A stretch of 60,606 bases of DNA from a virus. The notes below the pieces were generated by a model. The model made no database searches. It had not been told where the DNA came from and saw only the letters and a list, made by a program, of their open reading frames with translations. Position 1 is the stretch's first letter; each line of letters begins with the position of its first letter. The translations under genes and the position numbers were made by a program. Shown here piece by piece: positions 22,764-47,961 of the stretch. Location of the stretch: positions 1 through 60,606 of IMG/VR virus record IMGVR_UViG_3300020473_000031, one strand, 5' to 3'.

Positions 22764-22771
22764 TTATTTAT
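22764..22771 (-). promoter_or_regulatory. Putative late promoter (ATAAATAA) before the 408-residue gene
   Basis: ATAAATAA on the minus strand, about 20 bases upstream of the 408-residue ATG, overlapping the stop codon of the giant gene. It is the only motif of this type between the giant gene and its downstream neighbours. Confidence 0.6.
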
Positions 22772-25700
22772 GGTGTTTCAGGGTCTACCTCTTCTTCACC
22801 GTATAGGCTAAGATCAGGTGCGTTCCAATCAAGAGGAACAGTTGTTTCAACTTCAACTTTTGGATCCTTATATCCAGATCCAGCATTATTCATTTCAACA
22901 CCTGCAACCCCGATCAATGCTCTGATGTTTCCATCAAATCCAGATATAGAATCGATTCTAACATTCGGTCTGGTTGTATATCCAGAACCACCAGATGTTA
23001 CCTGAACATCATTGATGAATCCTGCAGTCAGAATAGCAGTTGCCTTAGCATCTTGTCCGAATACAGATCCAAGATAGTCGAAGGTGATTAAGGAGTTTGA
23101 TGATTCAATAACAGCAACTTCTCTGTCTGATGTCTCACCTTGGATGTCAATAAAGTCACCAGGTTCGATAGGTGGTACAACTTCAGCAGCATCAACGTCT
23201 GCCTCAGAACCAACGTAGGAGAAGGCAACGAATGTTGATCCTACACGAGGAATTTCAGAGAAGATAATTCTAGAACCAACGATCTCGAAACCTACACCTG
23301 GTTCCTGTATAACACCATTCAGAGAAACGATGATGTTATTTTCTGGACGTATAGTTGAAGATTGAACACCCTCAGTTAGAGTTAGTGAGTAGAATACATC
23401 ATTACGCTTGAGGTTAAATGACTGACGTAAGGAGTCGAACTCGAATGAAATATCATCCAACTGTCTCAACTTACCTACGTAGAATCCTGTGAAGGATGCA
23501 CCTAGTTCTGGTGGTTCTGTGAATTGAATCTGATTAGAGAACGCTGTATATGCGTTAGTACCACCTGGAGGTTGTAGAATACCATTGATGTATACAAGAA
23601 GATGTCCTTCTGGATCTGGGAGGTAATTAACACCATTATCAATCGTTAGATTAAATGTATCTTGAACACCATCAAATCCCTTAAACGCTCTCTTAACACG
23701 TGCTTTAAGATCAACTTTATTTTGAACTGCTGCCCTATAGTCTCCAGGTCCAATAACAGAATCCTTAAGGTCAAATGATCCTGTAATATCACTTAAATAT
23801 AATCTCTTGAACTGACCATCTGGACGTATATCCTGTACTAATGCAGCACCAGCACCAGGAGTATTAACTCTGGTAATTACCGATGCATAACCTACAGGGA
23901 AGTTACCACCAAGACCATAATCACCTACGAGATCACCATTTGTAATTTGATCTCCTACGAAATCAGCGATATAAAGGAAGTTGTTATCTATATCAACCTC
24001 AGTAATAATTGCATAGTTATTTTGATCAGCAACACCACCAATAACTTTATAAAGTCTATTACCAACAGTAAATGAACTTAAATCACTAATAATAGAAATA
24101 CCAATTCTTACGTATCCATTTGATGCTATTCTGTCACCAACACCTATATCTAAACCATTATATTTACTTACATTAATAAATTGTCTAGAAGTTTCTGGAT
24201 AAACAACAGAAGTTTTTTCAAATGAACCAACAAGAGTTTCAGTATCAACTGTTAGAGTACCACCAGTATTATCAAGAATAGCAGCTTCGTTTCTAAGGAA
24301 GTCAGTAGGTGTAGCAGAAGCACCACTTGTATATCCTTTAAACGGTACAGTTGCGTCAAATTCACCATCAAGATCAATAATCTGTATACGATCCTCTATC
24401 AAACTAACCTGTGCTGTTGTGTTATTTGTAGAACCAACAATATAATCAGTGATAGCCCAAGGATTACCAGTAACTTCAATGTCTAAGTAACTAAAGTTCT
24501 CATCCTCATGAACTCCGTATATAATACCAGTAACTGATGGATCACCATTCTTAGAAACAGTTTCGTTCATGACCCAAGGACCATCAACTACATCACCATC
24601 AAAACGTAATCTCTGATAGATCTTAACAATCTCACCCTTATTAGGAATAAGAGTTTCTAATTCAGCATAACTGTCACTAGCAGTACCATATAGATAATCT
24701 GATGATTTTAATCCACCACCCAATCCAACTGGTAATTCTCTATTACCATATGTGTAGGTAGGAATTGTAATTCCATTGTTAACTGTAACAGTAGTATAAT
24801 GAGTATCAATTGCTAATTGCTCACTAATCAAATTAAGATTATCACGTACAACTCTACTTACAGATCTAATATCATAATATCCAGCAGCATCAGCAGAGAA
24901 GAATTTCAAATATCCAGCCTCAGGAGATGGACTTGTAAGACCATCAGTCATTGCCTGAATAATATATTGTTCTAATTTATCTAATGCATATCTCTTAATA
25001 TTAAACTCACCATCAGCATAGAATATTCCACCACTAGCAGAAGTATATGGATCTAATGTACCCTTAGAAAGTTTTGCACCCCAAGCATAAACACCTTTAG
25101 TTCCATCACCACTGTATGATAACTGATTATTTTCATTTGATACGTTAATTCTAGCCTTAAGTTCTGTGAATCCAAATGAGAATGTTGTTGTAACATATGC
25201 TCTATACCAACCGCCACCATAAGGAACAGCACCATAAGCATCACCTGATATACCACCTTGAGGTATAAACAGAGTACCTGTATTACCAGTATTCATATTA
25301 AGATCAAAGAATACACTTTGTTCTCCAGCAGTTCCATCATCAAGTATGATATGGAATCTTATTTGCTCATATTCTGCCTTCTTAAAGAAGCATGAGAATG
25401 TATATTGCTGATCATCACCACCAGTTCCTGATCCACCTTCATCAAAGCTATTTGTAGTATCATCAAATGTAATATTACCATCATCCCATGTATCATATGC
25501 AGTTAAGTCGTATATTCTATCAACGGTATGCTCACCACCAGCACTAGAAGAAATTAATTTAGAAGCAGTAGTACTGTTATCTGGTGCTTCTGTAAAGTTA
25601 TCACTAAATCCAACTCCAGTACCTGTCCAATTAGGTACGAACAATTCTGGATTAGTAAATAAGTTAATACCAGAAACTTGACCAGTTATATTTGATGTAA

Positions 25701-28700
25701 TATTTCTAGCAAAAGCTATTGTCCTTACATTACCTGGTGAATTGAACCAAGTGTAACTACTACCAACACCATTTACAGAAACAGTTGCTAATGCATTAGA
25801 TTTTGTTCCAGTTAATGAAGTATTAGATATCCAAGGAGTTCCTACAAATTCACCAACAACTAAGAATTTAGTGTCTGAATTATATTCTAGAACCTTAGCA
25901 GATCCCTTGTCAGAAGTAATTAATTCACCAACTTCAAATCTTCCAATAACACTTTCAATTGTTATATTATGAGCAATAGAAGAATCACTGATATCTGTAG
26001 TTAACAAATCATGACTCATATTAGTGATAATACTATCAACCCAATCATTATATTGCCAAGTATTAAGACCAAACTGTGCATTAACTAGAGTTGTAATTTC
26101 TTCCTTATAATATCCTCTATTATAAATGAGGTTCTTAGCAGCACCCCTCATAGGTCTCTTACCTGGAACAATGAGATTAATTGCAGTATTAACTAATTCT
26201 TTAATCCTAGTTCCAACTACTGTCATATCAGTAGGTGTTTCACTATCAGTATATGGATCGTCAAATGAATGTACATAAGCATAAAGAGGATCAACTGATG
26301 AACCACCTTTAATTCTTAACTCACCTTTAACAGCATGCTCACATAAGAATCCTAATTGCTCTATAGCATAAACTGTTGCTAGAAGCTCATCTTCAACATT
26401 AATGATTTGCATCTGAGAAGACAAATAGTATTCCATTGCAGCAACGGTACTATTATTACCACCAGTCTGTAAGTCAGATATTATACCCAATATAATAAGT
26501 TTCAAATCTCTCTGACATGTACTTTCTCCACCTGGTTCTGGATAAGAGAAAGCAAACTGTTGAGAAGTATCCAACATGTAAGTAAACTCTGCTCTTGTTA
26601 AACCAGTAATTTCAGATGAAATACCATCTCTATTAAAGTAAAGTCTATCAGCAGCAATTGCAAAATCAGCATTTGTAGGAGCAATAATATCATTTGCAAT
26701 AGTTACTAAGTTATCAATAGCATCAGTAACGTTTGCACAATCTCCAGGAGCAGTTACACAATCGGTAACAGCACTCTGGAATGTATGTAATGTTGTGTTA
26801 GAAGAAGTTCCAACATTAACAGTAATTGTAGTTGCTGTTATATCAATAATTTCAATATTCTGTAGATATACAGGGTCTGTAGTTCTAGGATATGTGTGAT
26901 CACTACCATTACTATCTTCAAGACAACGGAATGTTAATCCATCAGTTGCAATTCTTATCTTTCTACCTTTAACTAAAGTATGAGAACCAATAGTTAACTC
27001 TAATTCACCTGTTGTTGGCTCATAAGTTGCTCCAGTTGGAGTAAATGATTGAGAATTAGATTGTGTGATTCCCCAAGCACCAACAATGATCTTATCAGTA
27101 TTACCTGTTGTTAGATCACCATTAACTGCTTGCTTCATATAGAATGCAAGACGCTCATGGGCATAAGCAGACTGGAATACTTGTAATCGAATATGTAGTA
27201 GAATATCATTAGTACCAAGATATCTCTTAGCAACATTTACAGTATTAAAATTACCACCATCTCTAAGATCTTTAATAAACTCTTGAAGAATTAACGCTAG
27301 GTCAGTCTTACACTGTAATGTACCAGCACCACTTCCATCAAAGTTTCTAGGCATATCCAAAGCAAGATCTGGATAACGCTCTAACATATCATTAGATGCT
27401 TTATCAACAATAGGACCAGCATTTAACTGAACTAAATTAGCAGCATCTATAAATCTATACTTACCTGCAGCACCAATCTGATTAGTAAACATGATATCTT
27501 CTGTACCATCATGCCAATTAATTGGGAACTCTTCTTCATAGTAAGAGTATATTCTACCACCAAGGAATTCGTGTGGAGGTGAATACTTAACAAGACTACC
27601 AAGATAATCAAGAGGTGGATTCTGTATTGCAGCATCTAATGTATCTGTAACAATACTAATTAAGTTCTCTATAGTTGTTTGTACATCAGTACAATCAGAT
27701 GTGTTGTAATTAAGAATCTTAATTCCATTTGCAGTTGTTTGTGCAAAATTGTGTATTGTTAATTGATGCTTAACTGATCCAGGATCACAAGATACAAATG
27801 TATGTGATGCTTGTGGAGTGTATGAAACAGTATTAGAACCTTGGTTACCTACAAATGTATGTGTGTAATCACCACCAGTAGAAATAACTGCTCTAGTAAT
27901 ACAATTAGCAATTGTAGAATGATATGTATGTGCAGTTATATTGGTAGAAGGAGTTACATCTAATACCTGTATATCAAATGTATTAGTTTGTACATTTGAA
28001 ATTGGAATATACTTACCACTGATAGGATCAGTAGAGCGTGGATATGCATGAGTTGTTGCATAATTATCATGAGCACAAGTAAATTTCAATCCACCATCAG
28101 CAATCTTAATATGCTCACCATTAACAAATCCATGATCGGCAACGGTTATAGTAATTACACCAGTAGTAGGATTATATGATGCAGTAGAAGGTGTATATGT
28201 ATTATTTGCATTCTGGAATACATGAGTTGTTGTATTACTTGAAGTTCCTACATCAAGTGTAACAGTTGTAGGAGTTACAGCAGTAATATTAACTGCTGTA
28301 TTCCATGCAGGATCGTTACCAGATGCACCATTTTGACCATTTGCACGAGGATAAGAATGATCAGAACTTTGACCATCTTGATCGCAACGGAATATAAGTG
28401 AATTATTAGCAATTCTAACTGCTGTACCAGCAGTTAAACTATGGTTACCAATAGTAACAGTAAGAAGTCCAGTTCCAGGAACAAATGATGCATCAGTTAC
28501 ATCATATCCCTTAATAGGAGATTTACCAACATTAACTGTAATTACACCACTCTGTCTTCTAAGACCTTTAGTAGAAGCCTTTTGGAATACGTGTGTTGTG
28601 GTATCAGATGAAGTACCAACATTAATTTCAAATGTATCATTAGTCTTATTGGAAATTGGTAACCATCTACCACTAGCATAATCTGTAGATCTTGGATATA

Positions 28701-31700
28701 CATGATCAGTACTATTACCATCAAGCAAACATCTCAATGTCAATGATTCATCAACAATCTGAACATAATCCCCATTAGAATATCCGTGTGCAGGTACGGT
28801 TAGAACCATCAAACCAGAACCAGGAGTATACACTGCATTGGTTATTGTTGCGTGTGTATGACCTACATGAGTAATTGGAATAGACTTATTATCTCCATAT
28901 GGATCTGTTGAACGAGGATAATCCTTATTAGAACCATTACCATCCATTCCACATGTGAATCTTAAACTACCATTTGCAATAGTAACGTTTGCACCAACTC
29001 TCATACCATGCTGACCAATTGTTAAAGTCATCTCACCAGTCTTAGCATCATAAGATGCATCAGAAGGTGTAAATGTTTGGTCTGCTTGTGCAACACCTAC
29101 ATTAAGACTAATTGTATTAACTGTGGTTCCAAGAATCTTAAGTTTCTTTCTTGCTGCACGAACATCATGTCCTGGACGTGGATAAGACTTAGTAGTCTGA
29201 TTGTTATCCATTGCACAAGTAAATTTAATAGAATTATCTTCTAATGTCACATAATCATCTTGAGTTAATGGATGTCCCTCAATAGTTAATATTAATATAC
29301 CAGTAGAAGGATCGTATGTAGCAAAGGAAGGTGAATATGCAGTATAATTTCTATTATCACCAAAAGTAGTACTACCAACATTTACAGTAAATGTATCAGC
29401 AGTGTAATGAGTAATAGGTAATGCAGACTTGTATGCTGGATCTGTTGTACGAGGATATGGATGAGTAGTTTCAGCACCATCCATATCACAAGTAAACTTA
29501 AGTGCATCAGGTAAAATTTCTATTGCCTGGCCTTGCTTATAGATTCCATTAATAGTTGCAGATTTAAATGTATGGTTATAAACACCACCTGTCATAAGCA
29601 CCGCCCTATGAACACCACCTGTAGATGCAGATACAAATGTATGAGCATCAGTATTGGTAGAAGGTGTAGAATCTAATACCTGAATAGTAAATGTATCAGT
29701 CGTTACATTACCGATAGGTACATACTTACCGCTAATTGGATCAGATGATCTAGGATATGATTTGTCTGTTGCACTACCACCGAAACTACAATTAAAGACT
29801 ATGGAATTATCATCCATCATAATATGATCACCAGCTTCAAATCCATGATTAGGAATTGTAAGGGTCATTACACCTGTAGTTGGGTTGTAAGCACCATTAG
29901 TTACTGTATAAGCACTAGGAGAAACAAACTCATGTCTGTATATACCACCAGCAATAACAGCATTCTTTCTAGCACTAGCAAATGTATGAGTGTGATTTCC
30001 ACCAGTTCTCAAAATACCTCTAGTGATACTATTAGAAACAGCAGATACAAATGAATGTGTATCAGTGTTTGTGGAAGGTGCTACATCTAATACTTGTACA
30101 TCAAATGAATTAGTTTGTACATTAGAAACAGATAACCATCTACCACTAGCAGGGTCAGATGATCTTGGATAATCCTTCTCTGCAGCAGTACCAGATGCAC
30201 CACCAAATGCACAACTTAACTTAATAGCACCGTCATCAATCATAACTTGCTCACCATTTGCCATATTATGATCATTAACAGTGATAGTCATGACACCTGT
30301 AGTTGGGTTGTAAGCAGCATTAGTAGGTGTTAACTTAGTTGCAGCAACATAATTATGAGTAGTTGTATCAGTCGATATACCAACATTCAAATTAATGACA
30401 CCAGTTTGACTATGAAGACTACTATCTAAAGCAGATACAAATGTATGTGTCGATAAATCACTAGACTTACCAATATAAACATCGAATGAATCTGCTAAAA
30501 CATTACTTAATGGTAACCACTCATCGAATGATGGATCAGTTCTTCTTGGATATGAATGCTCACTAGCACCATTATCCTTACCACATGTAAATGTTAATGC
30601 GTTTTCAGCAAGTTTGATGCATGAATTTGCTTTGGTTAATCCATTAGCAACAGCAGATACAAAAGCATGTGTAGTTGTATGTGAAATTGCTGCTGGACCA
30701 AACATGTTACCAACATTAACTTCAAAGAAGTTTGTACTTACATTGAATATTGGTAACCATCTATTACTTGCGAAATCAGATGCTCTAGGATAATCATGAT
30801 TACTTGCATTACTATCCTTATCACATGTAAATCTTAAAGATCCATCAGCAAGTTTAACTCTATCTCCGTCTTGGAAACCATGACCAGCAACAGTAAGTTT
30901 CATTACACCAGTAGTAGGTGTAAATGTTGCAGCAGTTACTGTGTGGTTAGTTGATAATGCAAATCCATGATTTACTAACTCGATGTTCATAACACCAGTA
31001 GCAGGAGTATATGTTGCTAAAGTTGGTGTATGTGCATTAGTTCCAACTGATGTAATAGGAACTGGTTTGTTATATGCATAGTCAGCACCACCAGGAGCAT
31101 TAGAACCTGATGCTCTAGGATATTTCTTCTCAGTAGTATTTCCATCACCATTAAAGTCGCATGTAAAGGTCATAGACTCTTCACCAATCATTACGGTTTC
31201 ATTTGTTCTGTATACTCCATTAGTAGAAGCAGTTACAAATGTATGGTTATAATCACCACCAGAAATTACTGCGTCTTGAGATGTACCACCAGTCCAATTA
31301 TGGGCAGTTACATCAGATGAAGTACCAACATTAAATGTTATTGTTGTTGCACTCTTAGCAGTAATTACTACAGGAGTTCTCCATGCAGGGTCAGCAACAC
31401 CAGCATTCTGTATAAATCCTGTTTCTCTAGGATATAATTTAGAAATTGTATCTCCATCAAGACCACAACTAAATGAGAAACCATAATCCTTAAGCATTAT
31501 TGGCTCACCAACTTCAAGAGTATGGGATCCGATAGTTGCTTCAATAAGACCAGTAGCAGGATCATATGTTGCAGTTGTTACATCGTGTTTTACGAGAGGT
31601 GAAGAACCAACATTAACTTTAAATGTATCAGTTGTTATTCCTACAACTGGCAACCACTTATTGAATGATGGGTCTGTAGATCTTGGATATTGCTTATTAG

Positions 31701-37700: not shown

Positions 37701-40700
37701 TTTCACTCTCTGCAAACACACCATCATGATCAACAATCTTAAGGATTCTAGGTCCAACTTGCCAACCAGAGTTTGTAGAAACATATCCAGTTGCAGTAGC
37801 AACTTCTAAAGATTCTCCTTGATAAACCAATTCACCTTCTAAGAAAGTAGATGTAATAACATTAGCTTCAGCAGCACCACCGAAAGATTCGGTTAATACA
37901 CTCTGACGACCTTCACCAGCATTAACAAATGTAAGTGCGTCACCAAGTTCTGCGTTAGCTTCAGTAATAGCAATTTTTAATTGATCATCTTCTAGTGAAT
38001 TTGCTGAACCAGAAATAGCATAGTAAGTAGTAACTCCATTAAGACGACCAGTAGCACCAGCAGATAGTGGGAAATCAGCTCCATCTCCAGTATCAGTCAC
38101 TGCCAATGAAAGTTCAGCACCATTAGGTATTCCATGAGGATATGCAAATTGTAATAAACCTAAGTCTAAGTTAACAACATAGTTGAAAGAAGATCTTAAA
38201 CTAACTTGTGGTGTAGAAGAATATCCAGCACCAGGATCTTTAACAACAATGTTATCCAATCTACCATTCTTAATAGATGCTTCTGCTTGAGCACCAAATC
38301 CACCACCACCTTGAATTATTACAGTAGGTGCTAATGAATATCCAGAACCTGGATTCGTAACGGTAATACTTTCAAGAATACTTGTAGAAGTTAACTGAGC
38401 ATTTATTGGGAATGTAATCTCAGGACGTAAAGTATAGTCATGAGGATAATCATAACCAAAGTTATTGTTCTTAAGTTTCTTAATCTTACCAACTTTATCA
38501 CCTTTAGTGAAAATAGATGCTTCAGTACCAAAAGGAGGAATAACAACAGTTAATTCTGCACCAGATCCTTGTAATCCAGGTCCAAGAATACCATCAATTG
38601 ATTCAATATCAATATAAGCAGTGGTATATGCTTTACCTGGAGAAGTAACAACTACTTCTTGTATCTGACCTGGAATTGTAATACCATCTTCATCCGATCC
38701 ATCATTAACTAAAATACTAACTAAACCACCTTCACCATCACCTAATATAGGAACAGAATTATAAACACCAACAGCATATTCAGTACCTGGTTCATTAATT
38801 TGAACTCTTTCTATATTTCTTGTTGATTGTATATCTGTAACAATAGGTAATTTGGTATAGAATCCACCAGGATTAACTATACGAACATCTGCGATAGATC
38901 CAACTGCTTTTAGAGAACTTGTACTGTAAGATGCCTGATTTACATTTGCATTTCCTTCGGGTTCATTAGCAAGAAGGAATTTGAATACATCTGCACCTTC
39001 GGTAATAGTTGCACCAGCAGTACTTGAAATTACAAAATTACCCTTATAAGGAGAATCTGTAACATCAAGATAACTACCTGCAATCACAGGAGAATTATCT
39101 CCAGTTCTAGAAGGATCGAAATAATATGAAATATTAGTAACAATATCTGGATCAATTTTTAACTTAACTGTAGGTGTAGGTTGTCCTTGACCAGTTACAC
39201 CTGGAATACCAATTCTTTCAATAGAGTTGAATGAATATTCCAACTTATAAAGATTATCCTTAGAGAATGATAAGTTACCACCAACCATTGAAGAGTGACT
39301 TAGGTCAAACAAATATTGATGACCATTGTACATCTTTAAGACAGGAGATTTAACAAATATATTAACATTAGCTGCTATTGTAGAAGGAGAAGTTACAGCA
39401 GCTTGATTTAACTTATATGTAAATTCTAACGGGCTAATAACACTATCAACTGGGAAAGCACCATCATATTCATCATAGGTAGTTCCACCAGATTCTTGTG
39501 CTGGATTACCATCAACATATATCATTTCGCCATTACTTAAGTAATGACTTGTAGAGGTAATACAGTATACTTCATCTGTATTAGAAACAGAACTAACTTG
39601 AAGAATCTTTGTTAAATTAGCAGTTAAAGTGATCTTAAGAACACCTGCCAAATTGGTAATCTGACATGTACTATAAGAAGTATTAAATGTTATATCACTA
39701 GAAGTAATATCAATAACAGATCCAGGAATATATGTGGATCCACCTGAAACTTCATCTATTCTAATTGAATAGTCATTTACATCAAATTCCTTTAATTTTG
39801 CAAAATCATCTAAATTATTAGTTCCCCCAACATCAGAAGGTGCATCAAAAGTAGAAAGATCTATATCAAATGTTCCTGGAGTTGTGTTATTAATCTCAGT
39901 AAACACATAATTCTTAACTTCATTAACATCATTTGGAAGAGGACCAATAATACCATAACTATCTTGCTCACTGAATTGTTGTGTAATTAATTCACCATTA
40001 TCCAAATCATCAGTCCAAGGATTGTGAATAATAGCAAGATATATTTTATTAGCAGAATTATCCTTTTTAATAATATAACCACTATTAATAAACGTACCGT
40101 TAGGATTTTGAAGTACTAATTTAGCACCAACTGTAAAATCAAATGACTGATTTATAGTAAGTTCTTGTATGTTATTAATAACAACTGTGGATGTAGGTTT
40201 AATATAGTACCTATCATTAACAACAGCAGATACCTTTAATTTTTGAGATCCTGGAGAAGGAACAGTTGAAGTTCTAGCACTCCAAATATCAGCAACATAA
40301 GTTAATGCCTCTGTATCCTGAGACATAGTTGTTGTAGCATCATCAAAGTCTAATGATTGGAAACCTGCTTCTGCTAATTCAAAACCAGTACTACCAATAC
40401 TTAAAGTAGTTCCAGTAACAGGAGCAATATCTGCTCTTGCAAATCCAATCTGTGTATTTGTTTGTAGTCCTTGATCACCTAAACGATCCGAATCAGCATT
40501 TTTATCAATTTTTAAACCAAAACCAATATAATCTTCAGATTCATATCTTCTTGTTTGAGCATCAAACCAAGCAGTATCTGTCCAAGAATAACCAAAACCA
40601 AACTGAGATGCTTGTGGAAGTCCATTTATATCAGCTGGTGAAGTAGGAGTTATTGCTCTATTCTTTAATTTAACATCATCAAGATAGAATTGACCTTGTG

Positions 40701-43700
40701 TATCTTTATCAAAGTCATTAATACCAGCACCAAATCCAGGTCCAACACCAAAGTATAGATCCTTACCAGCAAATGATGTGTTTGATATAGTTCCACTAGC
40801 TACTTGAATACCATTAACAAATGACGAGAATAAATTCCCAGACTTAGTTATTGCTACAGAAATCCAAGTATTATTAAGCATTACAGAAGAAGCACTTGAA
40901 ATAGCGGTAGCATTAACAATTTGAGTTGAACTATTAGCAATTGTTAAATCTAAACCACGACCTGTACCAAATCCCAACCAAAGACCACCAGTAGGATCCT
41001 GAGAACTACCAATCTGACATAAAGTCATTAAATTTTGACTTAAACTAAATGGAAGACCAGAATCTCCATCGATGTATACCATCATCTGAATGGTAAAGTC
41101 TCCATCCAATGTAGTACCCAATTCAGAAGAAGATGCTTTAATATGACCATTTTCCCAAGTAGTTTGAGTATTAGCTGGTACATTACATCCATCAATCTTT
41201 GCTACACCACTCACATAACGTATAGAATTATTAGCACTTTGATCTGTAATAGTGTAATGAGAAGCAAGATCAGTAAGAGGAGATCCACCATCATCAAAAT
41301 CTAAAATAAACTCATTTCTATTCCATTGAGTTTGACCGTAAATGTATACATCACCAGATACATCTACAGCAAGTGCTTTTGCAGTAATACCTTCAACTTG
41401 ATTCTGATTAAACTCATTTGTACTATGCTTCTTCATAGTACCATCATAACCAATCTTAACAGTTCCTACAGTTGTTTTTCTAGTAACTTGATCATCTTTT
41501 GTATATGCAACATTAAGATCACCAAATATATCAATAATAGAATTATCAACCAGAGTTAATTCTCTACCAGTAGCAAGATAACGATAATTCCAAATTATAT
41601 TACCATCAGTATTTAATTTACCTACCCAGAAACTATCTCTAGTAGTATCATCAGACTTAAGTCTGCAAGTTGCAGTAATATAAAATTCATTAAATTCATC
41701 TATTGTTAAACTAGTGTTTATGAAAGAATAAACTGTATTACTTAATTCTTTTATCCAATCTATTGTTATTGCATTAATACCAATCGTTGCTTTACCAAAA
41801 GCTACATTAATATCCTTAGAATCTGGAGCAGAGGCAGTTTCCATAATGAAATAGACACTATCCTCAATGATTATCATATCCGTCATTCTTTCGGATAAAG
41901 TTCCAGATGCAATCTTTCTCTTAACAGCAAAATTACCTGTAGTGTCAATAGATGCTATAAAGGCATCATCAGGGTTTAATGAGTTTGTATTTGTATAACC
42001 ACCAATAACATAACGAATATCAGAGTATTTCTCAAGACAAGTAACATAATCTGCACGATTAGCACCAGATATACCAGCATATCCCTTTTGGAAATCTAGA
42101 GTAGCATCTAATCCATCTTCGGATTGAGTATACTTACATAGAATAATATCTGGATTATAAACATTTAAAAGGTTTGCATTTGGTCTATTATTACCTACAA
42201 CCCATATTTCATCATTAGTAAATGGATTTTTATTGACATATAACTTTTGGAATTCTGTATAATATTGACCATCTGTACTTTCTAATGTTCTTTCCCATTC
42301 TTTAACACCTAAAGCAGAATGCTTAGATATAAATGCAACTGTATTTCCAGTAGCATCTTTTGTTTTACCACAATAGTATGTCTCTTTTTCTTCATTAACA
42401 TAGACATCATTAACAGAAACATAATTATTATTTGATATCGTTGTTACAAAATAATCTGCTTTTTTGAAAATCTGTGGATGACTTAATATAACACGAGGAC
42501 TTGTTGTGTAATCTGATCCAGAATTAATAATATTAACAGTATCAATAGATCCTACAGAACTAACTACTGCTTCTAACTTACCAGCAGTACCATCTCCATC
42601 AATAATAATTGTTGGTGGAATCTCTTCATCATATCCAGAACCAGATTGTTCAATTACAATAGACTCAATACCTTTAATCTGACGAACAACAAAAGTTTTG
42701 TTCGTATTTTGCATTATAGGAGTATAATCTACAAATACTTCATCACCAGTAACTAAATTATGAGGAACATTAGTATCTAAAACACCATAATTCAATCCAT
42801 TAACATTCTCAAAACTATAAGAATCTATAGCTTCACCCTTAATTCTAGAAATACGAGCAGAAACACCAGCTCCATCAGTACCTTCATTATCAAATGTAAG
42901 TATATCATCAACCTGATAGTTCTTACCTGGGTTTTCAATAGTAAATCCAGTTACTGAAGCATCTTCAAACTTAGTTATAGTTTCAACTTCAATATCAACT
43001 TTAGAGTCAAACTTAACTTTAGGGAAGTAATCAAAGAGTTGTAATGGTGACTCCTCAAACATTTGAGCAGGATCTGCGGTTTCATCAGGAGTAATAACAC
43101 CATCACGGTTAACATCTTCCACCTCAAACATCAAAATATCACCATCTTCAGTTGTTAATGCAGCAGTAGAAGCATTTGGTGTTCTTTCAACATCAATATC
43201 AACATTTTCATAAGGATCTCTATATCTTACAACACCAGAAGGTATATTTTGCTGTACAGCACTAGTTGAAAGATTCCAAGTATCAACAACAGAGTTATAA
43301 CTTGGTCCAATAACATATGGGAATAAAGCATTACCATCTTCTGTAGCATCAATAGTTACAAAATAGCAATACCTACCATCTGGATAATCTGGAGTCTTAC
43401 AAAAACGACCATTATATTGATCCAAATCACCTAATCCAAAGACATATTCATAATCTTCAACAAATTTACCTGCAGGATACAAATAATCTCCACTTGTATC
43501 TACATCTGTAAGAAGAGGTCCATCACTTCTAACAGGATATGGATTAGTAGTTGCATCAAATACAAGACTTTCTTGCAATCTATATGAAGTGCTAAGTCTA
43601 ATTACAGCAGATCCTTGGTCAGTTGGATCAGTATATCCATAAGGACCGTAAATTGGATTACCATCAAATGCCCAACCAATAATAGGAGAGTGTGCTAACT

Positions 43701-46700
43701 GGTCTTCTTTTTCTAAAGTTTTACCATAAGCATCTTTATAAAGGTTATCACCTAAAATATATCTCATTCTCTGAGGATTGGATAGGTGAGCATATTCACC
43801 ACCATACTCATTATTATAACCAGTAAATACACCACCTCTTGCATCGTCAAATATAGAAGTAGATTCTAAATTATAAGTCCATTCAAATACATTTGACTCA
43901 AATAAAGCATCTTGACCAACAGAAGTTAGATTAATAACTGTAGTACCCTGAAGATAGTTAATACCTCTGTTAACAATCTCAATTCCAGTTACCCTACCTG
44001 CATTTTCACCATCAACATCAATTGTTGCTCTTGCTATAGCACCAAATCCATCACCTTGAATAGTAACTTCAGGTGCAGTAGTATAACCTTGACCAGCAGA
44101 AATTATAGCAATAGATATAATTCTTCCATTGTTAACAATAGCTTGTGCAACAGCACCACTACCAGAACTTAATGATATATCAGGTTTTGATGTATATGAA
44201 TTACCACCATTAGTAACATTGATTGATTTAATAGGACCACGTACAGAAGCTGTACCTTGTGCTCCAGTACCACCTCCACCAACAATAGTAATAGAAGGTT
44301 GTGAAGTATAACCAGTACCTCCAGTATTGATTAGAATACGTGAAACTTCACCTTTAGTAATAATTGCCGTAGCAGCAGCTCCAGACCCATTACCACCGAC
44401 TATAGATACCAATGGTGAGGTTGTATAACCAGAACCACCTTCTGTAACTGTAATTTCACTAATAGAACCATCAACAGTTACTGCTGCCGTTGCTCCAGTA
44501 CCTCCACCACCAGATACCGTAATTGCTGGAGGAGAAGCAGCATCATAATCTTTACCTGAATTTAATATATTAATACTCGTTACAGCACCAAATGTCTTGC
44601 TTAAATCTGACTTATAAGACCATATAGAGACACCATTAACCCATGTACCAATAGGACCAGGCTTAATAAGGTCTTTAGTTGAAATTGTTTGTGCAAGTTT
44701 AGGGAACCTATTTAACTTACGCTGGTTACCTGGAAGAAGTGCAGATCCTGGGAAAGGACCAATTTCATAGTTTGGAATACCTGTAGAAGCAACATATACA
44801 TAATCATCATTAAAGAATGAGTTCTGTACGTTTGTAGTATAAGGACTAATAGCATTAAAAATAGCACTATTAAGAGATTTACCTTTATTAAGGTCAATAG
44901 ATACAAGAATATTACCTTGTGGTTCAACAGTAGCAGGTTGTACTAAATTATATTGGAAAACATACTCACCATCTCTAGATGTTACAAGGAAAGATCCGTT
45001 ATAGATGATTGGGTTAGCACCATAAATTGTAACCTGATCCCCAACCAATAGACCATGAGGATTAGCACAAGTTACAGTAGCAGATTGATTGTTAACACCA
45101 CCATAAGTGATAGATGTAACTTCAATTAATTTTTTAACGTTATATAACCAAGTTGTCAAATCTGGACCAATACCAGTACCACCCAACTTAGAAACTGTTA
45201 ATTTATCACCAGGAAGATAGTAAGATCCAGTATCAGTTAAAGTTGTTTGTTGAGCATCAACGATACCAACAATATTCATCACAACTTCTTGAAGAGTACC
45301 CTTATTAATGTAAATTCTAAAATTAGACTTTACTTCAGTAGCAGAATCCCAATCTTCTACAACACCATTAACAGAACGAGTACATTCAATAAACTGGTTT
45401 AATGATTTTTCCTTATATTGTACAACCTCACTATCACCAATAACAAACTCACCATTTCTTTCTGGCCAACCAATAGTAGAGTCAACTGTAATAATACTAT
45501 CAGTTTCGTTTAAAGGCTCACCTAATCTCGTCTTATAAGGTACAGTAAAAGTACCATTAATCGTTTCTTCAGATAAAACAAGTTCAAAAATCTCTAATTC
45601 AGAGGTTTTAATAGAAATAAAATTCTCTACAAGAGCACTTGCTGCTTGAACATTAGGATCAGCAATATCAGCTTCTTGAACTATAAGTCCATCTTTAATA
45701 TCACGAGGATCACCACTAACTAAAGATGCACGAAGAATGGTGTCAATAGACCAAGTAGCGTTGGATGGCTTAATAATTTGATCTTTTGGATAAGAAATAC
45801 TTACAGTTTCACCATATAATAACTTAAAGAGATACGCAATACTAAAAGATGTACCCTTAGATGAATAAAAATCTTTAATTGATTTTATAGCATTTCTTAC
45901 ATCAATCTTTGTATAATCTAGACTTGGAACATCTGGAAGGAATTGTTCTGTATATTTGTCAAGAAGTCTCTTAACAAAGAGTTGATCCAAGCATTTTACT
46001 GGAGTATTAACCTCTGCAGATGTTGCAGTAGTGTTATTCGTGAAAACTGCGTTACCATCTTCAGTATATGCAGTAATACCACTTGCTGCTCTAGCACAAC
46101 CTTCAAATTGTGCCTTTGTATACTTACTACCATTCTGATTTACTGTAAATCCAGTAACTTGATTTAATCCCACATTTGCAGATGCTTCTGCAGATGGTGG
46201 AGACTGAATGAATATTGTTGGTGGATTAGCAGAACTATAGTCTCTACCAAAATTAACAATATTAATATCAATGATTCTACCATTGAATATTGATGCTACT
46301 GCAGTAGCTCCACTACCACCAGCATATGCTCCAGTTCCATCTGTTCTATCATCTAAGATGTATACAGAAGGAACATCATCATATCCACTACCACCACTCA
46401 ATAATTCAATAGAAACAACTCTTCCATCACCATCAACCTTAGTTTCTAATACTTGAGCACCTATAGGATCTATTATTGCAATTCTAGGAACAGTTTCATA
46501 TCCCTGACCAGAATTCAAAATATTAATACTCTGAACTTGACCATCTACCATTACTGCCTGTAATGAAGCTTTAATACCATCTTCACCTGTTGGTTCATCA
46601 ACATATATTTCAGGAACAGTTGTATATCCAAATCCCTTCTCTAAAACTTCAATAGTTCCACTAATAGAACCCCCAATCATCGTTGGAGTGCCTATTTTTG

Positions 46701-47961
46701 CCCCACCTGGTTGTTTAAAAGTTAATCTAGGTGTAAAAGTATATCCACTACCAGAATTAACTATTTCTAAATCACTAACTTGTCCATTAGTGACTGTTGC
46801 TTTTATTTCTGAAGTTTTTGCACCAGGTTTAGTTGGATCTTGAACAATTACAGTTGGTGGATTAGTATCACTATAACCTTTACCACCATCCAATAATTGT
46901 ACTTCCTTAACACCGTTAACAAGTGCTGTTGCAGAAGCACCACTACCAGTTAAACTATTGATTGATACTTTTGGTGGATACTCATATCGATAATTATCAC
47001 CATTAACACTTGTAGAAATTCCTGTAAGCTGACCATCATCATCAATACGAGCATATCCTACAGCATCAGCACCAAAAGAAGGAATTGGTGCTTCAACAGC
47101 AAACAATTCCAAATATCTACCGTTTAAAGGTGGATTTTTAAATATAAATTGATCGTGGTCAATATAAAATTCTTCTTTTGGTATTAAAAGTTGATTATCA
47201 TATATTGCATAAACATATTCATCAATAACTGGTTCATACCTCTCATTATTCCTAGTAATAGTGAATTGCCTTTTATCATCACCAAAACTATTGGATATAT
47301 TATCAATTTGTACTATAGGACTCTCAACAAAACCACTCATGTATGTTATAGTAGTGGAAGATGTGTCATCAGCATCCAATTTTGCTCTAGGAGGCTCAGT
47401 AAAGACAATATCAGTACCATCTACAGTAAAATCCAAAAGAGGTACTTGCAATTCACCATATACTTTAACAATTAAATGCTGTGCAGATGGTGGAGCAATA
47501 GGATTATCCTGTGATGTTAACGGAAATCTCTGCCTAGAACCATCAAAAAGTGATAATGGACTTGCAAGACCAGTCCATTTTAACTGAACCTGCTCGTATG
47601 AAATACCTGGACTTAACGCAATATTAGGTGAAGCTGTTGTTTTCTCGTAATATATTACTTCGTCGCCAATTAATAATGATCCATTCTTCTCTAAGAAATC
47701 ATCAACAGACTCTACAATTATCTTATCATCAGTGGCAGTTATTGGTTCTACAATCTTTGTCGTACCATCAAGAATCCCAACATCCAGTTTATCAATATCC
47801 AGATATTGTAGAAAATTATTAACTATATTCTGTCCTAGACCAGTCTTTTCTTGAGATCTATAATAGTACTCAATAAACTTATTAAACAGTGGATAATCCT
47901 GTTCAACAAAATCAGGGGTTAATGATTTAACTGACTGAGAGACTTTATTCGTATTTGCCAT
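22768..47961 (-). CDS. Giant (8397-residue) modular virion protein in the gp7 position
   Basis: One uninterrupted frame of 25.2 kb, predicted near 0.9 MDa. T4 gp7, at this position after gp25 and gp6, is 1032 residues, so gp7 identity rests on synteny. The N-terminus 'VKSLTPDFVEQDYPLFNKF' is typical of cyanophage baseplate proteins. Modules in order: GxGY repeats (about 334-580, 1130-1307, 1774-1827, 3014-3254); a YHYH domain (about 1420-1560, 'GWAFDGNPIYGPYGY'); a propeller-like segment (about 1837-2210); LamG-like domains (about 2217-2435 and 4055-4256); 23 'TFTC...YPR' repeats (about 4320-7060); three helical Cys/GGN modules (about 4410-4510, 6753-6963, 7071-7216); and C-terminal 'NGxxQxPG' and GxGY units ending near 'WNAPDLSLYGEEE'. 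It is probably a baseplate hub or fibre scaffold that also contacts host glycans; that role is inferred. Confidence 0.8.
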   Translation of the reverse strand: MANTNKVSQSVKSLTPDFVEQDYPLFNKFIEYYYRSQEKTGLGQNIVNNFLQYLDIDKLDVGILDGTTKIVEPITATDDKIIVESVDDFLEKNGSLLIGDEVIYYEKTTASPNIALSPGISYEQVQLKWTGLASPLSLFDGSRQRFPLTSQDNPIAPPSAQHLIVKVYGELQVPLLDFTVDGTDIVFTEPPRAKLDADDTSSTTITYMSGFVESPIVQIDNISNSFGDDKRQFTITRNNERYEPVIDEYVYAIYDNQLLIPKEEFYIDHDQFIFKNPPLNGRYLELFAVEAPIPSFGADAVGYARIDDDGQLTGISTSVNGDNYRYEYPPKVSINSLTGSGASATALVNGVKEVQLLDGGKGYSDTNPPTVIVQDPTKPGAKTSEIKATVTNGQVSDLEIVNSGSGYTFTPRLTFKQPGGAKIGTPTMIGGSISGTIEVLEKGFGYTTVPEIYVDEPTGEDGIKASLQAVMVDGQVQSINILNSGQGYETVPRIAIIDPIGAQVLETKVDGDGRVVSIELLSGGSGYDDVPSVYILDDRTDGTGAYAGGSGATAVASIFNGRIIDINIVNFGRDYSSANPPTIFIQSPPSAEASANVGLNQVTGFTVNQNGSKYTKAQFEGCARAASGITAYTEDGNAVFTNNTTATSAEVNTPVKCLDQLFVKRLLDKYTEQFLPDVPSLDYTKIDVRNAIKSIKDFYSSKGTSFSIAYLFKLLYGETVSISYPKDQIIKPSNATWSIDTILRASLVSGDPRDIKDGLIVQEADIADPNVQAASALVENFISIKTSELEIFELVLSEETINGTFTVPYKTRLGEPLNETDSIITVDSTIGWPERNGEFVIGDSEVVQYKEKSLNQFIECTRSVNGVVEDWDSATEVKSNFRIYINKGTLQEVVMNIVGIVDAQQTTLTDTGSYYLPGDKLTVSKLGGTGIGPDLTTWLYNVKKLIEVTSITYGGVNNQSATVTCANPHGLLVGDQVTIYGANPIIYNGSFLVTSRDGEYVFQYNLVQPATVEPQGNILVSIDLNKGKSLNSAIFNAISPYTTNVQNSFFNDDYVYVASTGIPNYEIGPFPGSALLPGNQRKLNRFPKLAQTISTKDLIKPGPIGTWVNGVSIWSYKSDLSKTFGAVTSINILNSGKDYDAASPPAITVSGGGGTGATAAVTVDGSISEITVTEGGSGYTTSPLVSIVGGNGSGAAATAIITKGEVSRILINTGGTGYTSQPSITIVGGGGTGAQGTASVRGPIKSINVTNGGNSYTSKPDISLSSGSGAVAQAIVNNGRIISIAIISAGQGYTTAPEVTIQGDGFGAIARATIDVDGENAGRVTGIEIVNRGINYLQGTTVINLTSVGQDALFESNVFEWTYNLESTSIFDDARGGVFTGYNNEYGGEYAHLSNPQRMRYILGDNLYKDAYGKTLEKEDQLAHSPIIGWAFDGNPIYGPYGYTDPTDQGSAVIRLSTSYRLQESLVFDATTNPYPVRSDGPLLTDVDTSGDYLYPAGKFVEDYEYVFGLGDLDQYNGRFCKTPDYPDGRYCYFVTIDATEDGNALFPYVIGPSYNSVVDTWNLSTSAVQQNIPSGVVRYRDPYENVDIDVERTPNASTAALTTEDGDILMFEVEDVNRDGVITPDETADPAQMFEESPLQLFDYFPKVKFDSKVDIEVETITKFEDASVTGFTIENPGKNYQVDDILTFDNEGTDGAGVSARISRIKGEAIDSYSFENVNGLNYGVLDTNVPHNLVTGDEVFVDYTPIMQNTNKTFVVRQIKGIESIVIEQSGSGYDEEIPPTIIIDGDGTAGKLEAVVSSVGSIDTVNIINSGSDYTTSPRVILSHPQIFKKADYFVTTISNNNYVSVNDVYVNEEKETYYCGKTKDATGNTVAFISKHSALGVKEWERTLESTDGQYYTEFQKLYVNKNPFTNDEIWVVGNNRPNANLLNVYNPDIILCKYTQSEDGLDATLDFQKGYAGISGANRADYVTCLEKYSDIRYVIGGYTNTNSLNPDDAFIASIDTTGNFAVKRKIASGTLSERMTDMIIIEDSVYFIMETASAPDSKDINVAFGKATIGINAITIDWIKELSNTVYSFINTSLTIDEFNEFYITATCRLKSDDTTRDSFWVGKLNTDGNIIWNYRYLATGRELTLVDNSIIDIFGDLNVAYTKDDQVTRKTTVGTVKIGYDGTMKKHSTNEFNQNQVEGITAKALAVDVSGDVYIYGQTQWNRNEFILDFDDGGSPLTDLASHYTITDQSANNSIRYVSGVAKIDGCNVPANTQTTWENGHIKASSSELGTTLDGDFTIQMMVYIDGDSGLPFSLSQNLMTLCQIGSSQDPTGGLWLGFGTGRGLDLTIANSSTQIVNATAISSASSVMLNNTWISVAITKSGNLFSSFVNGIQVASGTISNTSFAGKDLYFGVGPGFGAGINDFDKDTQGQFYLDDVKLKNRAITPTSPADINGLPQASQFGFGYSWTDTAWFDAQTRRYESEDYIGFGLKIDKNADSDRLGDQGLQTNTQIGFARADIAPVTGTTLSIGSTGFELAEAGFQSLDFDDATTTMSQDTEALTYVADIWSARTSTVPSPGSQKLKVSAVVNDRYYIKPTSTVVINNIQELTINQSFDFTVGAKLVLQNPNGTFINSGYIIKKDNSANKIYLAIIHNPWTDDLDNGELITQQFSEQDSYGIIGPLPNDVNEVKNYVFTEINNTTPGTFDIDLSTFDAPSDVGGTNNLDDFAKLKEFDVNDYSIRIDEVSGGSTYIPGSVIDITSSDITFNTSYSTCQITNLAGVLKITLTANLTKILQVSSVSNTDEVYCITSTSHYLSNGEMIYVDGNPAQESGGTTYDEYDGAFPVDSVISPLEFTYKLNQAAVTSPSTIAANVNIFVKSPVLKMYNGHQYLFDLSHSSMVGGNLSFSKDNLYKLEYSFNSIERIGIPGVTGQGQPTPTVKLKIDPDIVTNISYYFDPSRTGDNSPVIAGSYLDVTDSPYKGNFVISSTAGATITEGADVFKFLLANEPEGNANVNQASYSTSSLKAVGSIADVRIVNPGGFYTKLPIVTDIQSTRNIERVQINEPGTEYAVGVYNSVPILGDGEGGLVSILVNDGSDEDGITIPGQIQEVVVTSPGKAYTTAYIDIESIDGILGPGLQGSGAELTVVIPPFGTEASIFTKGDKVGKIKKLKNNNFGYDYPHDYTLRPEITFPINAQLTSTSILESITVTNPGSGYSLAPTVIIQGGGGFGAQAEASIKNGRLDNIVVKDPGAGYSSTPQVSLRSSFNYVVNLDLGLLQFAYPHGIPNGAELSLAVTDTGDGADFPLSAGATGRLNGVTTYYAISGSANSLEDDQLKIAITEANAELGDALTFVNAGEGRQSVLTESFGGAAEANVITSTFLEGELVYQGESLEVATATGYVSTNSGWQVGPRILKIVDHDGVFAESERITGVISKSSGIISDLKVARGVLDIGSITKTTGQFIDDVGKPSEIIQKIQDSYYYQDFSYAVKSAVSISEWKEILIRNVHPASFKVFGELNLNEYGQIPNKETFFQLTKSVELAQEAVVPNIQSFALVEPIYSEFNNTEVLFRQKRLTSSENILTSVVQRVDNIDHLFDGERIAFPLTVEGGTVVANANQLMIVLNGIVQNPNTSFQIQGDSIVFSEPPSPPASVKYANLTISQIQTWDLTWNNQSGIYPLIGNSLVGTSSQARLIVTSVTGTIISGYMDEGTFIPGELCTVSATGFSGNLVDITAVSNIGLYIYGETVTNLQGDTAKVEQINLETGAESPVCDLRYAIGPSTTEFEVVPVDGTGPLPAGTIDVAVNDGFRIGAEIMEVLSVVDGFDSTTLTVVRGTLGTQATAQQEGSPMYSTDINVTEALTLSKTAGTYQSTPGLYNIQLNDVIIGAKSGTVSRVTTASVYQDPVTGEFIGQVDISPGSSFFGLLFNRITSTSYPNVVIDDISKSQISIVDFTDNETAYNTNFPSNEIVSNYIIPYSNAVGTLQIGEDIRNYKIEYGNNTGEFTAGEAGRVRKISMYDKEGEGFFNAGQIIRTRDTKAEVIGYNQARGIVYLGKIGRSKSNGEDYFEFDFTNDAKISSTQKKFGDTSLQLDGSGDYISVASTSEMAFGTGEYTIEFWCRPDTAALAGLAEIYDTRTSDPEISGRIYLNGAQIRYNVNGSDIVTSGATVIPTNNTWYHIAVSRSGTTVKLFLDGVEVGSGTDSSTYVARPIRIGSSYAATNSFAGYIDEFRISDVARYTAAFTPPAGIHQGDVDTKVLLHFDSSDGDQFVDDWSGGESFSNKEYFNNDPIVASRRYIGKHTYTGGTVSGAVIIQQGIIEKDVTDATYNGLTGDLVLTIGSHSYTTSNTVKIAPNSLTFTCEMDNNATQHTYPRITDPVYDTAIAITAVTATTITVNVGVAIQQGFVKNSHRYNNAGQLILKNLEFIAKEVVYMINQKFPNFTVIGGDVNCEDDVKDICRSIVADMRNGGNNKTWLAVSYYIDRADTANVKLLNIETEVRETIWAYNKLDQMLEFIVTNSEWKPVGDHGLKQYTDTTITDSSTTSFTYKTPTGATYDADTGNLTLTEVGHGLVGRRAITVQNGTTYNAETGILSVTSASHLFQNGDKVMLEKESLTFTCDMDGHKTEHKYPRASDPALAGWLTVSNSQTNSFDLDVGKSPLLVFNPTGGSYDASTGHMKLQIGDNILTPGTNVKIAPNSIYFRCTSDGLQAVKKYPRTTDPIAGKPTPIAYDGEQLSASFANYTPTTGVMKITAGKTFTPLDATYNAVNGMMNLTIPDHGMQAGDTIRLEDGAITFTCAMDDHYSTHAYPRTTDPKRGLQLSITNVQTHSFSVNVGISPKVQLTPNNGIYNPTTGMMTLEFATPHGLTAGTSIKIAKESLTFSCGFGGASGDAAKKSYPRSTDPFYDTAVKIESATTNAITVKILENVPSTNTDTHTWVGATTGCIHTGGDYEHIFHSALTNGVVANKHGLLNGDRIKLATNSLTFRCQLDNQETEHSYPRSTDPYNGRWLAVSNVGANTFDVNVGISPDTSSHIFKSAYTNGITKRDGSITFDVGKSPRVGYDVAGATYDPLTGDMVLNVGIHNLLENQTIQIADNGLSFTCSMDGNATSHSYPRLTDPSRKHALNITNVGETSKTITGAVYTPTSGQMSLTVTGHNLNPATTHTPTDAVYNPATGELELTIVGHSFDNGDRVLLDDDCLTFTCGKDNHGSQHTYPRSTDPSSLKWLSVQNVHIDRFTVNIGKSQDLSDHRFISATSSCVKRAKDSVKFDDNSITFRCDKDAQATDHTYPRVSDPVHQQWIPITSAPDSNTIVLNVGKSSDTSTHVYQTATGGGLKVQTGYITVNVGKSPTVSHNPSSVTYNPGTGSMAMSIGNHYLRGGSQYTAETASYEATTGIMTVTVANHGFSVGDYIKFAENSITFTCTMNGNATNKQYPRSTDPSFNKWLPVVGITTDTFKVNVGSSPLVKHDVTTATYDPATGLIEATIGSHTLEVGEPIMLKDYGFSFSCGLDGDTISKLYPRETGFIQNAGVADPAWRTPVVITAKSATTITFNVGTSSDVTAHNWTGGTSQDAVISGGDYNHTFVTASTNGVYRTNETVMIGEESMTFTCDFNGDGNTTEKKYPRASGSNAPGGADYAYNKPVPITSVGTNAHTPTLATYTPATGVMNIELVNHGFALSTNHTVTAATFTPTTGVMKLTVAGHGFQDGDRVKLADGSLRFTCDKDSNASNHDYPRASDFASNRWLPIFNVSTNFFEVNVGNMFGPAAISHTTTHAFVSAVANGLTKANSCIKLAENALTFTCGKDNGASEHSYPRRTDPSFDEWLPLSNVLADSFDVYIGKSSDLSTHTFVSALDSSLHSQTGVINLNVGISTDTTTHNYVAATKLTPTNAAYNPTTGVMTITVNDHNMANGEQVMIDDGAIKLSCAFGGASGTAAEKDYPRSSDPASGRWLSVSNVQTNSFDVQVLDVAPSTNTDTHSFVSAVSNSITRGILRTGGNHTHTFASARKNAVIAGGIYRHEFVSPSAYTVTNGAYNPTTGVMTLTIPNHGFEAGDHIMMDDNSIVFNCSFGGSATDKSYPRSSDPISGKYVPIGNVTTDTFTIQVLDSTPSTNTDAHTFVSASTGGVHRAVLMTGGVYNHTFKSATINGIYKQGQAIEILPDALKFTCDMDGAETTHPYPRTTDPAYKSALPITHYTADTFTVNVGSTTFGDNRNYTAYSPSFATYDPSTGILILTIEGHPLTQDDYVTLEDNSIKFTCAMDNNQTTKSYPRPGHDVRAARKKLKILGTTVNTISLNVGVAQADQTFTPSDASYDAKTGEMTLTIGQHGMRVGANVTIANGSLRFTCGMDGNGSNKDYPRSTDPYGDNKSIPITHVGHTHATITNAVYTPGSGLMVLTVPAHGYSNGDYVQIVDESLTLRCLLDGNSTDHVYPRSTDYASGRWLPISNKTNDTFEINVGTSSDTTTHVFQKASTKGLRRQSGVITVNVGKSPIKGYDVTDASFVPGTGLLTVTIGNHSLTAGTAVRIANNSLIFRCDQDGQSSDHSYPRANGQNGASGNDPAWNTAVNITAVTPTTVTLDVGTSSNTTTHVFQNANNTYTPSTASYNPTTGVITITVADHGFVNGEHIKIADGGLKFTCAHDNYATTHAYPRSTDPISGKYIPISNVQTNTFDIQVLDVTPSTNITAHTYHSTIANCITRAVISTGGDYTHTFVGNQGSNTVSYTPQASHTFVSCDPGSVKHQLTIHNFAQTTANGIKILNYNTSDCTDVQTTIENLISIVTDTLDAAIQNPPLDYLGSLVKYSPPHEFLGGRIYSYYEEEFPINWHDGTEDIMFTNQIGAAGKYRFIDAANLVQLNAGPIVDKASNDMLERYPDLALDMPRNFDGSGAGTLQCKTDLALILQEFIKDLRDGGNFNTVNVAKRYLGTNDILLHIRLQVFQSAYAHERLAFYMKQAVNGDLTTGNTDKIIVGAWGITQSNSQSFTPTGATYEPTTGELELTIGSHTLVKGRKIRIATDGLTFRCLEDSNGSDHTYPRTTDPVYLQNIEIIDITATTITVNVGTSSNTTLHTFQSAVTDCVTAPGDCANVTDAIDNLVTIANDIIAPTNADFAIAADRLYFNRDGISSEITGLTRAEFTYMLDTSQQFAFSYPEPGGESTCQRDLKLIILGIISDLQTGGNNSTVAAMEYYLSSQMQIINVEDELLATVYAIEQLGFLCEHAVKGELRIKGGSSVDPLYAYVHSFDDPYTDSETPTDMTVVGTRIKELVNTAINLIVPGKRPMRGAAKNLIYNRGYYKEEITTLVNAQFGLNTWQYNDWVDSIITNMSHDLLTTDISDSSIAHNITIESVIGRFEVGELITSDKGSAKVLEYNSDTKFLVVGEFVGTPWISNTSLTGTKSNALATVSVNGVGSSYTWFNSPGNVRTIAFARNITSNITGQVSGINLFTNPELFVPNWTGTGVGFSDNFTEAPDNSTTASKLISSSAGGEHTVDRIYDLTAYDTWDDGNITFDDTTNSFDEGGSGTGGDDQQYTFSCFFKKAEYEQIRFHIILDDGTAGEQSVFFDLNMNTGNTGTLFIPQGGISGDAYGAVPYGGGWYRAYVTTTFSFGFTELKARINVSNENNQLSYSGDGTKGVYAWGAKLSKGTLDPYTSASGGIFYADGEFNIKRYALDKLEQYIIQAMTDGLTSPSPEAGYLKFFSADAAGYYDIRSVSRVVRDNLNLISEQLAIDTHYTTVTVNNGITIPTYTYGNRELPVGLGGGLKSSDYLYGTASDSYAELETLIPNKGEIVKIYQRLRFDGDVVDGPWVMNETVSKNGDPSVTGIIYGVHEDENFSYLDIEVTGNPWAITDYIVGSTNNTTAQVSLIEDRIQIIDLDGEFDATVPFKGYTSGASATPTDFLRNEAAILDNTGGTLTVDTETLVGSFEKTSVVYPETSRQFINVSKYNGLDIGVGDRIASNGYVRIGISIISDLSSFTVGNRLYKVIGGVADQNNYAIITEVDIDNNFLYIADFVGDQITNGDLVGDYGLGGNFPVGYASVITRVNTPGAGAALVQDIRPDGQFKRLYLSDITGSFDLKDSVIGPGDYRAAVQNKVDLKARVKRAFKGFDGVQDTFNLTIDNGVNYLPDPEGHLLVYINGILQPPGGTNAYTAFSNQIQFTEPPELGASFTGFYVGKLRQLDDISFEFDSLRQSFNLKRNDVFYSLTLTEGVQSSTIRPENNIIVSLNGVIQEPGVGFEIVGSRIIFSEIPRVGSTFVAFSYVGSEADVDAAEVVPPIEPGDFIDIQGETSDREVAVIESSNSLITFDYLGSVFGQDAKATAILTAGFINDVQVTSGGSGYTTRPNVRIDSISGFDGNIRALIGVAGVEMNNAGSGYKDPKVEVETTVPLDWNAPDLSLYGEEEVDPETP
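26860..26990 (-). repeat. Outlying copy of the YPR repeat (copy 23)
   Basis: A single copy, with Tyr at about residue 7024, separated from the main array by a helical Cys/GGN module. It has the standard core 'LTFRCLEDSNGSDHTYPR'. Confidence 0.85.
27830..34350 (-). repeat. Array of about 21 'TFTC...YPR' protein repeats in the giant protein
   Basis: From about residue 4540 to 6720 the unit recurs about every 101 residues (303 bases): 'xTGxMxLTIxxHG', 'IxxxxxSLTFTCxMDG', 'xYPRSTDP', 'xWLPIxNVxTxxFxVNVGxS' and 'THxFxSA'. The single Cys after 'TF' and the YPR triad are the most constant parts. A few units differ after YPR (for example YPRETG and YPRPGH). An earlier copy lies at about residue 4362 and a later one at about 7024. 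The units are diverged in DNA, so this is an old array and not a recent tandem expansion. Confidence 0.9.
34840..34990 (-). repeat. First copy of the YPR repeat (copy 1)
   Basis: Tyr of YPR at about residue 4362 ('LTFTCEMDNNATQHTYPR'). It lies between the second LamG-like domain and the first helical Cys/GGN module. Confidence 0.85.

Follow-up and report, generated by a model that had tools for sequence, protein, structure and literature searches.

An 8397-residue gp7-type protein with a variable YPR-repeat region in a marine cyanophage genome

The window analysed in this study, the whole 60,606-base IMG/VR record IMGVR_UViG_3300020473_000031, contains a single gene that occupies 41.6% of its length. 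A gene of this size raises the questions of which known protein it encodes, from where its length stems, and whether its product is a single chain. We consider the product, with a probability of roughly 0.78, to be a gp7-type wedge organiser of a T4-like marine cyanomyovirus (Kyanoviridae) with a very large peripheral arm that is beta-rich, evolving, and likely in contact with the host. The features on which this reading is based are listed in Table 1.

Table 1. Features of the giant protein and its neighbours in the window, in order of position
Feature	Residues	Position	Strand	Remarks
gp8 baseplate wedge protein		15438..16970	-	PF09215
1500-aa baseplate wedge protein		17009..21511	-	one YPR unit and YHYH-domain matches
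gp9/10-like fibre connector		21518..22744	-	adjoins giant gene downstream; PF07880, PHROG 677
Giant gp7-type baseplate wedge / virion structural protein	8397 aa	22768..47961	-	PHROG 701, orthologues, codon statistics
Fibre-type unit 3	8096-8288	23098..23676	-	within strongly conserved C-terminal region
Helical Cys module 3	7145-7215	26317..26529	-	
YPR units, 23 copies	4312-7057	26791..35028	-	predicted small beta-barrels
Helical Cys module 2	6880-6951	27109..27324	-	
Helical Cys module 1	4437-4510	34432..34653	-	
LamG-like domain 2	4089-4236	35254..35697	-	Pfam
Fibre-type unit 2	3525-3690	36892..37389	-	opens the half that is separate in S-SSM7, B23
gp7 core island 3	~3440-3516	37414..37644	-	T4 gp7 863-896
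LamG-like domain 1	2274-2440	40642..41142	-	Pfam
YHYH domain	1387-1539	43345..43803	-	PF14240, E 2.5e-29
gp7 core island 2	644-770	45652..46032	-	T4 gp7 727-759; PF23786
Fibre-type unit 1	139-290	47092..47547	-	
gp7 core island 1	~5-72	47746..47949	-	aligns with T4 gp7 647-673
gp6 baseplate wedge protein		47968..49992	-	adjoins giant gene upstream
gp25 baseplate wedge protein		49994..50419	-	position and sequence; same order in relatives

Reading frame of the giant gene

The frame opens with ATG and predicts a product of 904,975 Da (905 kDa). The preliminary description, made from the sequence alone, had given one uninterrupted frame, a share of about 42% of the window, and a mass near 0.9 MDa, all of which were reproduced. 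No N occurs anywhere in the window. At this base composition, such a frame would be open by chance with a probability of about 10^-282, and each of the remaining frames over the gene contains 404–1325 stops. The third-position GC content was 0.12–0.18 in all blocks. In comparison with three close relatives, changes were mostly located at third positions, and almost everywhere along the gene there were more synonymous than amino-acid differences. These codon statistics show that purifying selection acts uniformly along the gene. Orthologous frames on three other IMG/VR contigs (8394, 8396, and 8391 aa) were free of stops and 89–93% identical to the giant protein.

A gp7 core split into three islands

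The gene follows that of gp6 and precedes the gp9 and gp8 genes as in the T4 order, which bears out the gp7 slot originally assigned to it. A VrlC-like protein is also encoded downstream, beyond gp8. The order gp25-gp6-[giant]-gp9-(1400–1500 aa)-gp8-VrlC is common to S-SM1, P-RSM4, S-MbCM6, P-SSM4, and Syn19, and close variants of the window order were found in P-TIM40 and P-RSM6.

The link to gp7 had been offered by position only. When segments of the giant protein were compared by hhalign with an alignment of seven T4-type gp7 sequences, islands 2 and 3 matched at 96.3% (P 1.8e-9) and 88% (P 3e-6), respectively; island 1 was weak alone (P 0.044), yet colinear, and the three islands concatenated reached 97.4%. 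In a control comparison of the same alignment with 139 tiles that span the entire giant protein, the four best tiles fell in islands 2 and 3 at colinear T4 positions (P 1e-8 to 4e-4), the next best having a P of 0.008. A PDB profile search returned T4 gp7 as its top match at marginal significance, with E values of 0.12 for the window alignment and 0.023 for the gp7-slot protein of phiN3. The latter protein, with 1006 aa, matches both PHROG 701 (E 5e-19), to which the giant protein belongs, and PHROG 964, that of T4 gp7 (E 9e-7), and islands 1–3 are conserved, in unchanged order, from the window protein to the phiN3 protein.

The island alignments, the tile control, and the bridge through phiN3 together indicate that the giant protein contains the gp7 core, interrupted by insertions of approximately 570 and 2700 aa and followed by an extension of about 4880 residues. 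In T4 gp7 (1032 aa; PDB 5IV5 and others), which is encoded between gp6 and gp8 and is eight times shorter, the C-terminal core (~647–896) has the same order but is unsplit. Judged by its sequence, the giant protein is a true gp7-type protein that holds the C-terminal core of T4 gp7 as three colinear islands. The N-terminal 640 residues of T4 gp7 had no sequence match in the giant protein, an absence that leaves a common fold possible, and Pfam domains V and VI of T4 gp7 were matched neither in the giant protein nor in the same-slot protein of phiN3. The N-terminal 1300 aa of the giant protein, searched as a single sequence, gave chance matches only.

Relatives in cultured cyanophages

In PHROG 701, a virion structural protein profile of 6136 positions, residues 3–4197 of the giant protein correspond to positions 2–4178, and its C-terminal ~1016 residues to positions 5123–6134. 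A comparison with the gp7-position gene of related cyanophages, proposed in the preliminary description, revealed giant same-slot genes of 6180–8573 aa: S-SM1 (6180 aa), Syn19 (6483 aa), P-RSM4 and S-TIM4 (6603 aa), S-MbCM6 (7022 aa), P-SSM4 (7312 aa), P-TIM40 (7351 aa), and P-RSM6 (8573 aa). Proteins of this kind are already on record for dozens of marine cyanophages. The exceptional size implied earlier was not upheld, since 6–8 thousand residues are usual at the gp7 position in this lineage, and a unique or record-size protein is ruled out by the P-RSM6 isolate.

SSM1_102 of S-SM1 (PHROG 701 / T4-GC969) shares the slot and the domain order of the giant protein, with identities of 75% over the N-terminal 1300 and 67% over the C-terminal 999 residues; the window protein is 2217 aa longer and has 23 YPR units against 2. 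ORF_101 of S-TIM4 and the proteins of Syn19 and P-RSM4 are grouped with it. PSSM4_080 of P-SSM4, annotated as gp7 baseplate wedge initiator, shares the slot, both ends, and the YHYH, LamG, and YPR modules, but has 11 YPR units. CPXG_00128 of P-RSM6, annotated as a hypothetical protein, has the same slot, the N- and C-terminal landmarks, and 19 YPR units; it differs in having more helical Cys modules, in YPR units that are not one-to-one orthologous, and in an ORF added before gp9.

T4-GC969 was detected by mass spectrometry in purified S-SM1 virions (Sullivan et al. 2010, PMC3037559). Because GC969 is SSM1_102 in the S-SM1 record, an orthologue of the giant protein, the PHROG 701 family is a virion protein by experiment, through the S-SM1 orthologue. 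Searches of the literature on giant cyanophage proteins yielded, for the giant gene, no description other than "structural" or "exceptionally large hypothetical". The presence of the gene in cultured cyanophages and its membership in a virion protein family are already known, and the gene is not unique; the gp7 core homology, the tracking of length by YPR count, the predicted YPR barrel, and the split-gene halves are new. Sequence evidence now ties a "hypothetical" gene of hundreds of cyanophage records to the gp7 of T4. In this picture, the baseplate of an abundant group of marine phages is built around gp7-type proteins 3000–8600 residues long.

Modules outside the core

The mosaic of modules noted at the outset stood for the YHYH domain, the two LamG domains (Pfam), the 23 YPR units, the three Cys-rich helical modules, and the three fibre-type units, but not for a "propeller-like" region, which gained no support from Pfam or PDB sequence searches. 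The insertions between the islands hold GxGY beta-repeats, YHYH, and LamG, and the C-terminal half holds a fibre unit, LamG, the YPR units, helical Cys modules, and a further fibre unit. Pfam matches to PepQ_N and DUF4183 were discarded as they lay under the curated cut-off. AlphaFold2 modelling of the conserved C-terminal 352 aa from a shallow alignment (n = 18) gave a pLDDT of 30 and no usable fold.

In YHYH domains elsewhere, a His/Asp metal site and a hydrolase role have been proposed, and the histidines of the motif are likely part of that site (PMC7824862). The motif reads YCYF in the giant protein and YxYF in cyanophage relatives where readable. As the name-giving motif is absent, an active metal hydrolase is unsupported, and we claim no such role for the giant protein. 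HSPIIGxAxDGxPIYG within this domain is mostly retained across the cyanophage relatives read.

Copy number, fold, and exchange of the YPR units

Among 22 full-length relatives with 2 to 23 units, protein length followed the YPR tripeptide count with r = 0.94 and about 89 aa per unit; r summarises the trend here and does not amount to a statistical test, the sequences being related and hence not independent. The added length of the giant protein appears to stem chiefly from YPR copy number, through both gain and loss of units; the length of a gp7-type protein would thus be largely fixed by copies of one small module. The units pair one by one among close relatives, gain and loss are seen at about 60% identity, and beyond this the one-to-one pairing is gone. 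In the phage collection, the unit occurred in 398 records, all from marine cyanophages or marine single-cell viruses, and it is also found in other tail genes, including tail-fibre genes.

The YPR tripeptide and a Cys about 11 residues before it are invariant in the alignment of the units. One Cys is kept per unit and is mostly unpaired within it, so that inter-unit or inter-chain bonds are possible. The AlphaFold2 model of two adjacent units had a pLDDT of 87.5 and showed beta-domains; a small beta-barrel is the predicted fold of the unit. Structure comparison, for which the tool sets a caution level of Z 8, gave as best neighbours the FCCH domain of ubiquitin E1 (UBA6; Z 8.2, 79 residues, rmsd 2.7) and the barrel of the phage phi92 endosialidase, a tailspike (Z 7.4, 75 residues, rmsd 2.1), both of them weak matches that show no function. 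A Pfam match to E1_FCCH in the giant protein (E 0.05), not significant alone, agrees with the former. Foldseek of the model against the PDB gave no match below E 0.001, and a PDB sequence search with a single YPR pair gave nothing useful.

The ends of the orthologues are conserved, and the middle is variable. Amino-acid changes among the closest relatives showed no clear enrichment in the YPR array, and short-term host-driven selection there is therefore without support. Synonymous differences to contig G006 drop to about half over residues ~4200–6900 (28000–35400, minus strand), the region of the array; the drop was seen against G006 but not against contigs G004 or G007. From this pattern, the array looks as if it was recently exchanged between phage lineages.

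Proposed role of the giant protein

The giant protein is placed in the wedge by homology, since our searches turned up no baseplate structure from a marine T4-like cyanophage. T4 gp7 is a monomer of the wedge, present in six copies per tail, and binds gp9, the carrier of the long fibres (PMC3004832). By homology, we infer the wedge contacts, copy number, arm geometry, and host-contact role as follows. The three islands within residues 1 to ~3516 would fold together, and the resulting core would join gp6/gp25 to gp8 and the gp9/10-type proteins. Each wedge would contain one giant protein, probably six per tail, which amount to about 5.4 MDa if the T4 copy number holds. The inter-island insertions and the C-terminal half of ~4880 residues probably form a beta-rich arm that projects from the rim of the baseplate and likely touches the cyanobacterial surface.

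During coexistence with Synechococcus, an early non-synonymous mutation arose in S-PM2d081, and such early mutations were reported to be repeatable (PMC9910659). S-PM2d081 is a homologue of the giant protein with all three islands, and this mutation lends indirect support to host contact by the arm. The LamG domains, the fibre-type units, and the YPR barrels, which are among the inserted and C-terminal modules, are most simply read as parts of such an arm on the baseplate, from where it could reach the host. An explanation that we regard as possible but rather unlikely is that the long part acts mainly mechanically, setting the distance between fibres as a spacer, shield, or tail-rim scaffold instead of binding the host as an arm. 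Conserved ends around a variable middle would suit such a part, as would the lack of a catalytic or proven binding site and the degenerate YHYH motif, whereas the lectin-like fold of the LamG domains, the reappearance of the YPR unit in further tail-fibre genes, and the adaptive mutation in the S-PM2 homologue (PMC9910659) argue for contact with the host.

Within the reading as a gp7-type protein with a host-contacting arm, a more tentative suggestion is that the gp7 of this lineage is a wedge organiser fused to that arm and that the YPR array serves as an evolvable device for reach or avidity on the baseplate core. If so, contact with the host would be linked covalently to the contraction-triggering wedge. 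The reading makes what was an oddity of size accessible to testing and suggests where the evolution of host contact in cyanophages could be sought.

One chain or two

Two relatives, S-SSM7 and B23, encode the gp7 half and the fibre half in separate genes (SSSM7_101 and SSSM7_103, and gp257 and gp258, respectively). The first gene of each pair, with the gp7 core, extends about 430–530 residues beyond island 3, and the second contains both bracketing fibre-type units and, in S-SSM7, the YPR array; unlike in the window, a gp9/10-like gene stands between the two halves in S-SSM7. The matching position in the giant protein is near residues 3516–3525, and the separate genes imply that cleavage directly behind residue ~3516 would be tolerated. 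The giant protein could accordingly be a polyprotein-like precursor, cut most plausibly at ~3516–3525 into gp7 and a separate YPR/fibre protein, as both halves evidently work unlinked in these two phages. We consider this improbable, since the halves are fused in all other relatives of the lineage examined, no protease signal was identified, and no processing of T4 baseplate wedge proteins is known. The sequence still gives no direct sign of cleavage, as initially stated, and we infer that the giant protein stays uncleaved.

That separate genes or copies were joined by gene finding or repeat misassembly, as the repeats and the metagenomic source might suggest, is ruled out by the independent contigs of 8391–8396 aa and the uniform coding signal, and is further opposed by the isolates of 6180–8573 aa and by the divergence of the repeats, a single 36-base tandem DNA repeat within the gene and a mean protein-repeat identity of 33% making repeat-driven misassembly unlikely.

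Other features of the window

The gp9/10-like connector ends in a His/Cys segment, HPFRIQS...YQCTLHAAM, that is cupredoxin-like by eye. An 800-aa protein (54800–57202, minus strand) matches PHROG 719, "baseplate wedge subunit", and has GxGY-type stretches that match those of the giant protein. In the region between gp25 and this structural gene (50672–54106, minus strand), a heme oxygenase gene (51966–52643) stands among three 2OG-Fe(II) oxygenase-like genes. An overlapping ORF with a TTG start (54261–54860, minus strand), whose translation may in fact begin at a Met 20 codons further on, has a Gly/His-rich beginning and a "GGSKDVFIG"-type end and is PAAR-like by eye; a Pfam search with it gave no match. 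A 132-base direct repeat (2323–2568; 1.9 copies, 84%) lies inside a gene for a 2270-aa YadA-like fibre.
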